Made by a program: the position numbers and the translations under genes | Shown here: in pieces, positions 14,396 to 17,926 of the stretch | Layout of the letters: every line of letters starts with the position of its first letter | How positions within the stretch are numbered: the first letter of the stretch is position 1 | Source: Acidobacteriota bacterium | GTDB lineage: Bacteria > Acidobacteriota > UBA6911 > RPQK01 > JAJDTT01 | Direction: 5' to 3' | Assembly (NCBI GenBank): GCA_028874215.1 | Contig: JAPPLF010000034.1 | Span: 1 to 64,000, forward strand | DNA: 64,000 nucleotides | The notes under the pieces: generated by a model | What the model saw: the letters and a program-made list of their open reading frames with translations, nothing else | Databases searched by the model: none | What the model was told of the DNA's origin: nothing

Positions 14396-14430
14396 TGGAC
14401 AAATAGGAGTAGTATTTTACTATTGATAGT
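14396..14430 (+). promoter_or_regulatory. Promoter with nested inverted repeats upstream of the HTH/DUF488 cassette
   Basis: TGGACA at 14396-14401 and TACTAT at 14418-14423 are 16 bases apart and make a good promoter. Two inverted repeats overlap the -10: TAGTA-TTT-TACTA at 14410-14422 and ACTAT-TG-ATAGT at 14419-14430. The AT-rich 268-base gap from 14190 to 14457 contrasts with its GC-rich surroundings. A likely operator for the HTH protein encoded 28 bases downstream. Nothing else is recognised in the gap. Confidence 0.55.
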
Positions 14431-14457
14431 GAAAACGTCTCTCGGTATCATCACGGA

Positions 14458-14850
14458 ATGCAGATTTCGGAGATCACAGCCGTCATTCGCCGGGAATTGG
14501 AACGCCGCGGGACCAACGCCTACCGGGCAGCCGTGGACGCGGGGCTGCCCCAGAACGCCATCCGATCGGTCCTCCGCGGCCGGGAACCCGGAAGCGAACG
14601 CCTGGCAGAAATCTGCCGGGCGCTGGAACTTGAATTTTACGTCGGGCCGCCGAGAGGGCATCGCCAGGAGACGATCCAGGAGGTGGACGGGACCCCGGAA
14701 TTGCCGGCCGGGGAACCTCATTGGGTGGCCCGGCTCCAGGCCGGGTTGCAGGAATTGCAAGCCCAGTTGGCTGTTGCGCACGAGGACATCAAGGCGTTGC
14801 GCCGACAGATCGGGCCGCGACAGGAGCCACCGCCGGAAGCGCTGGATTGA
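14458..14850 (+). CDS. Small HTH regulator with C-terminal coiled coil
   Basis: A 130-residue protein. Residues 1-55 contain a Cro/repressor-like helix-turn-helix (AYRAAVDAGLPQNAIRSVLR then GREPGSERLAEICRALE). The C-terminal 35 residues (RLQAGLQELQAQLAVAHEDI) show leucines in heptads, suggesting a dimerising coiled coil. It lies first in a run with AlbA_2, dual-OB and DUF488 genes, and the upstream promoter holds inverted repeats, so it probably autoregulates the cassette. No strong SD is present. It lacks the S24 peptidase domain seen in LexA-like repressors. Confidence 0.7.
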   Translation: MQISEITAVIRRELERRGTNAYRAAVDAGLPQNAIRSVLRGREPGSERLAEICRALELEFYVGPPRGHRQETIQEVDGTPELPAGEPHWVARLQAGLQELQAQLAVAHEDIKALRRQIGPRQEPPPEALD

Positions 14851-14912
14851 CCGGCCGTTGCTGGACACACCGGCTCCCGCTCCACCGATTAGTTAATAGA
14901 TTGGGAAATGGA

Positions 14913-16142
14913 ATGACCAACGCCGAACTTGTCAGACGAATCCGGCTCGGCGAGGACTCGACTCTGGAGTTCAAGCGTGTAGTAGTGGCTGTCGGCCGCG
15001 TATCGGAACCGAAGCGCAATCCCATGGCAGACGAGTTGGCCGCCCTGGCCAACGCCAGAGGCGGCACCGTGGTCCTGGGTGTAGACGACGAGACCCAGGA
15101 GATTCTTGGTATTCCGCTCCAGGATCTGGATGCCGTCGAAGGCTGGGCGCAGGAAATCTGCAAGGACTCCGTGAAGCCGGCGCTCAATGCCGATATCCGA
15201 AAGTTGGAGTTGCCGGCCCGGAATGGTCAGTTGGTTCCGGTCGTTCGCCTGGACATTCCCCGTAGCCTGTTCGTACACAAGAGTCCGGGCGGATATTTCC
15301 GCCGGATCGGCAGTTCGAAGCGGGAAATGGCTCCGGAGGTTCTGGCTCGACTCTTTCAGGAACGTAGCCAGACTCGAATGATCCGGTTCGACGAGTCCAT
15401 TGTGCCGGGGACCGCGACGGGCGATCTGGACTATGCGCTGACGCGCCGATTCCTTCGGGGAGAACCCGATGAGGACGGCGTCACAGAGACCGCGGCGCGA
15501 AAGCTTCGCCTCGTGGCCGACGACGATGAGGGGCGGGCGCGGATCACGCTCGCCGGTGTCCTGCTGTGCACGCGCGAACCACGAACGTGGTTGCCTCACG
15601 CATACGTGCAAGCGGTCAGCTACGCCGGGGAGCGCACCGACATCGACTATCAGACTGACGCCCGGGATATCGGCGGGTCGCTCGACGTTCAGGTCGCCGA
15701 GGCGCTGCATTTCGTGCGCCGGAACATGCTCGTGCGTGCAAGCAAAGCGACCGCGCGTGTGGATCGCCCGCAGTTCAGCGATCGGGCGGTGTTCGAGGCG
15801 TTGGTTAACGCGGTGGCGCACCGGGACTACTCGGTGGCGGGCGCGCGCGTGCGGCTGCACCTCTTCGGGGATCGCCTTGAACTCCATGTCCCGGGCGCTC
15901 TGGCGAACACTCTCACTCCTGACAGCCTGCATTTGCGCCAAGCCAGCCGGAACGAGCTGATCGTCTCACTGCTGGCGCGCTGTCCGGCGCCTACCGGCCT
16001 TGGCCGTGTGAATCTAATGGACCGGCGGGGAGACGGCGTGCCCATCATCATGCAAGAATGCGAGAAGCTGTCCGGTCGCCTCCCGGAGTACCGGCTGATA
16101 GACGACAGTGAGCTGCAGCTCGTGATCTGGGCAGCCCCGTAA
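14913..16142 (+). CDS. AlbA_2 / HATPase_c_4 protein
   Basis: A 409-residue protein. The N-terminal AlbA_2 (Schlafen AlbA-like) domain begins EDSTLEFKR and continues ADELAALANARGGTVVLGVDD; a DNA-binding fold is expected. The C-terminal part resembles the ATP-binding HATPase_c_4 domain, with FEALVNAVAHRDYS as the likely N-box and GDRLELHVPG after it. Such proteins are often annotated as putative DNA-binding transcriptional regulators or helicase-like factors. ATG 14913 is chosen because it begins the domain; the frame is open further upstream but those codons lie within and beyond the HTH gene. It is followed 20 bases later by the dual-OB gene. Confidence 0.8.
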   Translation: MTNAELVRRIRLGEDSTLEFKRVVVAVGRVSEPKRNPMADELAALANARGGTVVLGVDDETQEILGIPLQDLDAVEGWAQEICKDSVKPALNADIRKLELPARNGQLVPVVRLDIPRSLFVHKSPGGYFRRIGSSKREMAPEVLARLFQERSQTRMIRFDESIVPGTATGDLDYALTRRFLRGEPDEDGVTETAARKLRLVADDDEGRARITLAGVLLCTREPRTWLPHAYVQAVSYAGERTDIDYQTDARDIGGSLDVQVAEALHFVRRNMLVRASKATARVDRPQFSDRAVFEALVNAVAHRDYSVAGARVRLHLFGDRLELHVPGALANTLTPDSLHLRQASRNELIVSLLARCPAPTGLGRVNLMDRRGDGVPIIMQECEKLSGRLPEYRLIDDSELQLVIWAAP

Positions 16143-16162
16143 CCGGCTGGACGGGATCCGCT

Positions 16163-16843
16163 ATGCCTGTGAAACGGGTCGTGTGCCTGGCGAACTCTCG
16201 GAAGCTGGCGGAACGGTGCGTCGCCGGCCGGGAGTGGATCGGGGGCCGCAGAGTCGGCGCCTGGGTTCGACCGGTGAGCGATCGCGAGAGTCAGGGGGTG
16301 TCCGAGTACGAGCGGCAGTACGTTGACGGCAGCGATCCGCAGGTTTTGGACATTATCGATATTCCGGTGCTGGAACATCGCCCGCAGGACCATCAGACTG
16401 AGAACTGGTTGCTCGATCCCAAGTGCTACTGGGAGAAAGCGGGCCGCCTTACGCCGATCGATTTACCAACGTTCGTAGATACTACCGCCCCACTCTGGGT
16501 CGACGGATACAGTACGTTCAAGGGCCGGAACGACAAGATCCCGGTCTCGGCGATCGCTCCAGTTACCGATTCGTTACGACTTATCCGTATTGACCGTCTG
16601 CAGCTTGTCGTGTGCCGGCCCGGCGAGGCCTTCGGAAACAACAAGCGGCGGGTTCAGGGTCGTTTCCGGCACGCGGAGACGCAATACGCGCTCTGGGTCA
16701 CCGATCCCAGGTACGAGAGAAAGTATCTTTCGAAATTGGACGGCACCTATGAACTCGGAGAATGCTACATCACGATCAGTCTGGAAGAGCCGTACCAGGA
16801 CTCCTGCTACAAGCTGGTCGCGACCATTTTCGAGGTTGATTGA
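16163..16843 (+). CDS. Dual OB-fold protein (DuOB type)
   Basis: A 226-residue protein of the family annotated as dual OB domain-containing. Recognisable conserved blocks are VVCLANSRKLAERCVAG, GAWVRPVSDRE, LDIIDIPVLE, LWVDGYSTFKGRNDKIP, FGNNKRRVQGRF and LGECYITISLEEPY. Two OB folds would suggest single-stranded nucleic acid or oligonucleotide binding. In sequence families it commonly neighbours DUF488, as here: a DUF488 gene starts 11 bases after the stop. The Cys-rich start (CLAN..RC) is a family hallmark. The function is unknown. Confidence 0.75.
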   Translation: MPVKRVVCLANSRKLAERCVAGREWIGGRRVGAWVRPVSDRESQGVSEYERQYVDGSDPQVLDIIDIPVLEHRPQDHQTENWLLDPKCYWEKAGRLTPIDLPTFVDTTAPLWVDGYSTFKGRNDKIPVSAIAPVTDSLRLIRIDRLQLVVCRPGEAFGNNKRRVQGRFRHAETQYALWVTDPRYERKYLSKLDGTYELGECYITISLEEPYQDSCYKLVATIFEVD

Positions 16844-16853
16844 CAGCAGCCCG

Positions 16854-17492
16854 ATGCACCAGATTCACGGCAAGGTCTTCACCATCGGCCATTCCAACCA
16901 CGAGATCGAGGGCTTCGTCGAGCTATTGCGGCAACACCGGATAGATGCCTTGGCTGACGTCCGCTCGGCACCGTACAGCCGCTTCAATCCGCAATTCAAT
17001 CGGGAACCGTTCGCCGCCGCCCTCAAGGAAAAAGGGTTCCGATACGTATATTTGGGACGAGAATTGGGCGGCCGGTCCGACAACTTCGAGTGTTACGACG
17101 AAGAGGGACGTATCGTTTTCGATCGAGTCGCCGCAACCGGGAAGTTCAAACGTGGACTTGCACGCGTCGTTGACGGAGCCGCCAGACACCGCATAGCACT
17201 TATGTGCGCGGAGAAAGAGCCGCTCGAATGCCACCGGACGCTGCTCGTCGCCTGCAAACTCGACAATCGGAGCGTCGAGGTCGACCACATTCATGCTGAC
17301 GGCAGCCTGGAGTCGCACGACCAAGCGATGACTCGTCTGATCAAACTCGTACTTCCGCGTGAGGGCCCTCTGATTCGCCAGACTGAACCTCACAGGGATG
17401 TGATGATCGCCGAGGCCGTTGAACGCCAAGTGAGGCGCATTGGCTTCAGGGACAAGAGTCTGGCCGCCACTTTCGCGGAGTCAATGCAATGA
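16854..17492 (+). CDS. DUF488 protein
   Basis: A 212-residue DUF488-family protein. It opens with the typical FTIGHSNHEIEGFVELLRQH, then ALADVRSAPYSRFNPQFNR, and contains the hallmark CAEKEPLECHR near residue 120, which in the family carries paired cysteines and a histidine. The frame is open far upstream inside the dual-OB gene, but the ATG at 16854 begins the domain. Its stop overlaps the start of a second DUF488 gene by four bases (ATGA), indicating translational coupling. The biochemistry is not established; the conserved Cys/His pattern suggests metal or nucleotide-related chemistry. Confidence 0.85.
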   Translation: MHQIHGKVFTIGHSNHEIEGFVELLRQHRIDALADVRSAPYSRFNPQFNREPFAAALKEKGFRYVYLGRELGGRSDNFECYDEEGRIVFDRVAATGKFKRGLARVVDGAARHRIALMCAEKEPLECHRTLLVACKLDNRSVEVDHIHADGSLESHDQAMTRLIKLVLPREGPLIRQTEPHRDVMIAEAVERQVRRIGFRDKSLAATFAESMQ

Positions 17493-17926
17493 AGTTGTCC
17501 ACCATCGGATTCACCAGAAAACCCGCCAAGCGTTTCTTTCACCTGTTGCGCAAGTCGGGTGCCCGGCGGATCGTAGACGTGCGGATCCACAATACCTCCC
17601 AACTCGCCGGCTTCGCCAAGAAAAACGACCTGACCTACTTCCTCGGCGAAATTTGCGGGACGGACTAAGTCCATCTGCCCAGCCTCGCCCCCACCAGGGA
17701 GCTGTTGGGTGCGTATCGAAAAAAGACCATTCGCTGGGGCACTTTTGAGAGGCGTTTCATCGCACTGATGCGCCAGCGGCGAATCGAAGCGACGACGCCG
17801 AAGGATGTGCTGAGCGACGGTTGCCTCCTGTGCAGCGAGGACCGACCGCACCATTGCCATCGCCGGCTGGTGGCGGAGTACCTGAACCAACATTGGGGCG
17901 GAATCGAGATCGCCCACTTGCGATAG
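17489..17926 (+). pseudogene. Second DUF488 gene, interrupted by an in-frame stop
   Basis: From the ATG at 17489 the frame encodes 59 residues (MKLSTIGFTRKPAKRFF to GEICGTD), then TAA at 17666-17668, then continues in the same frame without shift for another 86 codons (VHLPSLAPTRELLGAYRKK through the hallmark LLCSEDRPHHCHRRLVAEYL) to a TAG at 17924-17926. Homologues normally have an aromatic Tyr at the stop position in a Y-V-H-x-P-x-L-A-P-T block, so a TAC or TAT to TAA change is the simplest cause. No frameshift is needed. Either an inactivated gene, a sequencing error, or stop-codon readthrough. An internal GTG-type restart (GAYRKK onwards) could make a C-terminal fragment. Confidence 0.85.

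Follow-up and report, generated by a model that had tools for sequence, protein, structure and literature searches.

The locus described here lies in a window of 64,000 nucleotides, the whole stretch of DNA that was analyzed, from an Acidobacteriota metagenome-assembled genome (MAG; contig JAPPLF010000034.1). Five collinear genes on the + strand encode a helix-turn-helix (HTH) protein, a Schlafen-type AlbA_2/HATPase protein, a dual OB-fold protein (DuOB), and two DUF488 proteins, DUF488-B and DUF488-C. An earlier note, made from the letters alone, had read five same-direction genes spaced by 62, 20, and 10 nt and then overlapping by 4 nt, and this layout is exact on rereading. The HTH gene ends at 14850 and the AlbA_2 gene starts at 14913 (62-nt gap); the AlbA_2 gene ends at 16142 and DuOB starts at 16163 (20-nt gap); DuOB ends at 16843 and DUF488-B starts at 16854 (10-nt gap); and DUF488-B and DUF488-C share the ATGA at 17489-17492. 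Four of the five open reading frames are intact in the window, and the fifth, DUF488-C, is broken. The AT-rich promoter that the note had placed in front of the operon (14396..14451, + strand) is borne out by a scan for promoter-like sites and by cross-species conservation. Two sigma-70-like sites precede the HTH gene on the + strand, as compared to 0.8 expected: TTGATA at 14423 with TATCAT at 14446-14451, and TGGACA at 14396 with TACTAT. A palindrome, ACTATTGATAGT (14419-14430, + strand), overlaps the -35-like box. The AT-rich stretch upstream of the HTH gene is kept in the four species of the genus, in which the palindrome core and the TTGATA/TATCAT hexamers are largely conserved. The palindrome is plausibly an operator for autorepression by the HTH protein, in keeping with the self-regulation that had been proposed.

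The HTH gene (14458..14850, + strand) encodes a repressor-like protein of 130 aa with a helix-turn-helix and a probable C-terminal coiled coil. The gene families named in the earlier note are upheld by Pfam for AlbA_2/HATPase, DuOB, and DUF488, but the HTH_3 match of this protein is weak (E = 4.6e-4, 20.6 bits) and below the family cutoff. It also matches phrog_4583, a transcriptional repressor (2e-4). The gene is single-copy and occupies the same locus in 4/4 species of the genus, with dN/dS values of 0.22-0.57 versus sister species. Among the ~37 DuOB loci read, it was not seen beside DuOB outside the genus, and within the genus it also occurs without AlbA_2 and DuOB.

The second gene (14913..16142, + strand) encodes a Schlafen-type protein of 409 aa with an SLFN_AlbA_2 domain (residues 14-139; PF04326, 57 bits, 3e-15) and a GHKL-type HATPase_c_4 domain (residues 310-404; 2e-15). 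A profile alignment places E14, E19, and D59 opposite the catalytic residues E205, E210, and D248 of SLFN13 (PMC5862951). Among relatives, E14 is invariant, and E19 and D59 are conserved in at least 90%. The residues are observed; the protein is a predicted RNase, and RNA cleavage would follow from their presence. Bacterial Schlafen RNases with a C-terminal histidine-kinase-type ATPase have been reported from at least 1017 taxa as BREX-linked effectors (PMC12839542, which cites an anti-phage preprint). The window protein shares their AlbA_2 and HATPase_c_4 architecture, with the SLFN13 acids aligned. In contrast to those RNases, it is paired with DuOB and DUF488 rather than with BREX, and Pfam detects no C-terminal wHTH in it.

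DuOB (16163..16843, + strand; 226 aa) matches PF22557 over its full length (6e-69, 232.7 bits) and the PADLOC family PDC-M45A over residues 3-224 (E = 3.7e-89). Its AF2 model (pLDDT 89) is beta-rich and gives weak fold matches, the best of them (E 9e-4) to OB proteins known for gripping the ends of DNA or its single-stranded form: CST, telomere end-binding protein, HIN domains, and SSB. DUF488-B (16854..17492, + strand; 212 aa) is intact and is identified by PF04343 (1.5e-25, Pfam), by PDC-M45B (E = 1.1e-74, PADLOC), and by a C-x-E-x5-C-H-R motif. Its residues C118, E120, C126, H127, and R128 are invariant in the 16-18 proteins aligned, and the conserved cysteine/arginine pocket of the rhodanese-phosphatase superfamily is present. 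The AF2 model of DUF488-B (pLDDT 91.5) gives weak fold matches, among them PTP-fold phosphatases such as SsoPTP (E 0.03-0.16, TM 0.36-0.38). No solved structures related by sequence to DuOB or DUF488-B were found.

DUF488-C (17489..17926, + strand) is disrupted. An N-terminal open reading frame of 59 aa is followed by an in-frame remnant with the CSE...CHRR motif; both halves match PDC-M45C (2e-26 and 4e-30) and are split by an in-frame premature TAA at codon 60 (17666..17668, + strand). The earlier note had counted two DUF488 proteins by reading across this TAA. The residue at codon 60 is an invariant Tyr in 14/14 homologues from several phyla, plasmids included, and DUF488-C is intact in both operon-bearing sister species, in which the codon is TAC and TAT. 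Recoding or readthrough of the TAA is unneeded as an explanation, because TAA also serves as the stop codon of the AlbA_2 gene in this operon and the sisters have Tyr codons. The half lost past the stop holds the invariant CSE...CHR active-site motif, and a search of the 5.7-Mb assembly found no third DUF488 to replace it. A dN/dS comparison with the sister species shows no excess of amino-acid replacements past the stop, which is therefore either very recent or an assembly error. Unless it is a MAG artifact, loss of the active-site half leaves the enzyme pair incomplete in the window, and the module is probably impaired or damaged in this genome.

The note had regarded this locus as a candidate for an undescribed system. 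However, the DuOB, DUF488-B, and DUF488-C proteins match PDC-M45A, -B, and -C and stand in the same DuOB-DUF488-DUF488 order, so the core is already cataloged as a candidate defense module. PDCs are candidates nominated by guilt-by-embedding, most of them unvalidated (PMC12988326). As compared to PDC-M45, the window has two additional genes, the Schlafen gene immediately 5' of DuOB and, ahead of it, the HTH gene, and its C component is interrupted by the stop. Judged from its sequence, the window locus is related to PDC-M45 by descent and is incomplete as a system here. What may be new is the AlbA_2/HATPase Schlafen-type partner rather than the known core. A literature search on DUF488 and PDC-M45 returned nothing specific. 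A 2023 study by Burroughs and Aravind, outside the reach of that search, reportedly describes DUF488 cysteine enzymes of conflict systems that are predicted to process nucleic-acid ends; DUF488 cysteine enzymes are common to those systems and the window.

The site was compared across the genus. The same flanking oxidoreductase is present in 4/4 species, and the flank on the methyltransferase side also aligns. The full operon is found in G000, G001, and G003, and at the same site G002 (L034:5564-6691) has the HTH gene and one intact lone DUF488, without Schlafen, DuOB, or a second DUF488. This DUF488 is 65% identical to DUF488-B of the window, with flanking DNA 83-89% identical, and its retention with the HTH gene suggests that DUF488 may also act independently of DuOB. 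The window copy is surrounded by metabolic genes at this fixed site, and no other defense gene was noticed beside it. The mobility suspected in the earlier note is not supported here as a recent event: recent mobile insertion is disfavored by the shared site in four species, the absence of a tRNA from the window, the lack of any integrase or IS noticed beside the operon, and the failure to find an empty site. The GC content of the DuOB/DUF488 part (~59.5% vs ~64% around) is a weak hint of mobility.

The window locus might already be a dead remnant, its five-gene look without present function; we consider this possible but doubtful, and it is compatible with the reading that we favor for intact copies (below). 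In its favor are the stop in place of an invariant residue, the lack of another copy of DUF488-C in this genome, the reduced locus in G002, and a Schlafen-type gene broken by a deletion and a frameshift in a Vicinamibacteraceae MAG (L005, from which DUF488-C is also absent). However, constraint acts on the four genes with intact reading frames, HTH, Schlafen, DuOB, and DUF488-B, dN/dS versus sister species being about 0.15-0.25 for the last three (purifying selection), and the stop could be a MAG base error.

Outside the genus, DuOB is patchily distributed. It is present in 10/396 Acidobacteriota genomes, in 18/395 genomes of the phylum of a Binatia MAG (L006), on 22/72,556 plasmids, and on four viral contigs, with no matches in named phage genomes (50,697 records). 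The DuOB-DUF488-DUF488 triad or a reduced form of it was found in more than 20 loci, which come from the genomes sampled in the two phyla and from plasmids and viral contigs. The gene order is DuOB-DUF488-DUF488 in most loci read, and small plasmids carry a reduced form, DuOB-DUF488-DUF4326. DuOB loci often lie near defense genes, and their neighbors include CBASS on an Agrobacterium plasmid, type III CRISPR on an Allochromatium plasmid, NotI restriction-modification (R-M) on a Klebsiella plasmid, and viperin on a Moraxella plasmid. Of the chromosomal loci, L051 encodes a type I R-M system, and the BREX locus L054 (PglXI, BrxHI) has the triad inside it, together with a Schlafen gene. These positions beside or inside known systems are taken as support for a function in defense. 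In L054 (2944-10214), the Schlafen AlbA_2 gene and DUF488-DUF488-DuOB stand a few genes apart, a looser second association of the two. In two loci, a viral contig (L106:6643-9754) and an Agrobacterium conjugative plasmid (L056:6361-9827), the triad stands behind an HTH and ImmA/IrrE pair, annotated in L056 and recognized by eye in L106; recombinase or integrase genes lie nearby, marking a mobile, differently regulated version.

DuOB is also fused to RecQ helicase in five loci, as the C-terminal part in L113:5631-8411, L114:7742-10714, and L115:5658-8693 and as the N-terminal part in L052:10138-12093 and L053:1039-4068. Both types of DUF488 gene adjoin these fusions, as they do DuOB in the window, so RecQ is a second type of partner for the triad; the window has the Schlafen protein where those loci have the helicase. 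This alternation of RecQ and Schlafen suggests that the partners are interchangeable around a common core that processes ends. The fusions, along with the OB and phosphatase-like folds and the fixed, metabolic-gene setting of the window copy, would also fit a housekeeping or stress module in which DuOB, RecQ, and DUF488 heal broken ends of DNA or RNA while the Schlafen-type protein acts as a regulator that binds nucleic acid, with no part in defense. The patchy distribution, the plasmid and viral-contig copies, the embedding in BREX, R-M, CBASS, and CRISPR loci, and the repeated decay (the DUF488-C stop and the broken Schlafen gene) argue against such a module, which we regard as distinctly unlikely. 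If the core does work in defense, it would help settle the function of DUF488.

The link between the Schlafen gene and DuOB was examined by recurrence and phylogeny. AlbA_2 lies directly 5' of DuOB in the window, G001, G003, L005, and L006, a minority of the DuOB loci read (5/~37) that spans three lineages and two phyla. Intact operons are located at L004:2228-5780 in G001 and at L006:8735-11745 in the Binatia MAG. The earlier note had made its grouping depend on finding both the AlbA_2 and the HTH gene linked with DuOB/DUF488 in other genomes. The AlbA_2 part stands, in the sister species and in the Vicinamibacteraceae and Binatia MAGs; the HTH part does not extend beyond the genus, and a recurring five-gene set that includes the HTH gene is not supported. 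The five DuOB-linked AlbA_2 proteins form one clade (support 100/99), and the DuOBs of the same loci form one clade (support 88/81). In later work on alignment A2, row L070 was left out. The DuOB-linked AlbA_2 of the Binatia MAG is 76% identical to that of the window, as compared to at most 57% for unlinked AlbA_2 in the window's own phylum. Because the Schlafen proteins and the DuOBs are both single clades, the pair has probably moved together. Chance adjacency is rejected by the recurrence in other lineages and the congruent clades. The short gaps and the congruent clades of a pair retained in two phyla favor selection, although joint transfer alone could suffice. The main rival to a Schlafen-bearing system is that the PDC-M45 triad functions as a unit by itself and that the Schlafen gene is an independent defense or regulatory gene, once a neighbor and then carried along. 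Most DuOB loci have no Schlafen gene, no AlbA_2 stands beside DuOB in the plasmid and viral copies read, and AlbA_2 relatives, held by 51/396 Acidobacteriota genomes at E<=1e-20, are common without DuOB. Set against the pairing kept in two phyla, which joint transfer could also explain, these observations leave an independent Schlafen gene rather unlikely in our estimation.

Our analysis leads us to favor, with some reserve, the view that the locus is a Schlafen-bearing variant of PDC-M45, itself a candidate anti-phage module, and represents a defense-type nucleic-acid-end system with an RNase-like accessory. In this genus the HTH protein would control it, and the copy in this genome is probably impaired. 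The nucleic-acid-handling, defense-type module put forward in the earlier note is supported to this extent, with AlbA_2 recurring 5' of DuOB in congruent clades. In an intact copy, the HTH protein would hold the operon at a low level through the palindrome over the promoter. DuOB may grip exposed or single-stranded nucleic-acid ends, as suggested by its OB folds, its weak structural similarity to proteins that bind ssDNA ends, and the RecQ fusions. The DUF488 pair, with its C-x-E-x5-C-H-R pocket, would process these ends by transfer or removal of phosphate or sugar ends, as reportedly predicted for the family by Burroughs and Aravind (2023). From its residues, the Schlafen protein would be an accessory or backup effector that cuts RNA, probably tRNA, with the ATPase domain as a switch. 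A tighter arrangement, in which a single machine is built from Schlafen, DuOB, and DUF488, with Schlafen cutting tRNA on infection and DuOB/DUF488 altering the ends to block resealing by phage repair, appears very improbable. The Schlafen-bearing variant ties the unvalidated PDC-M45 to a named effector type, the bacterial Schlafen RNases, with candidate catalytic residues on both sides (E14/E19/D59 and C118).

Two further observations concern the sister genomes. The interval between the oxidoreductase and HTH genes in G001 (L004:1290-2050) contains, by eye, a PIN-domain (VapC-like) toxin-like gene and a probable antitoxin; this pair is absent in the window and is present as remnants in G003. 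The MAG COS4_bin_49 (L003), whose record calls it 'Candidatus Aminicenantes', matches G003 at ~92% protein identity, and its name may mislead.
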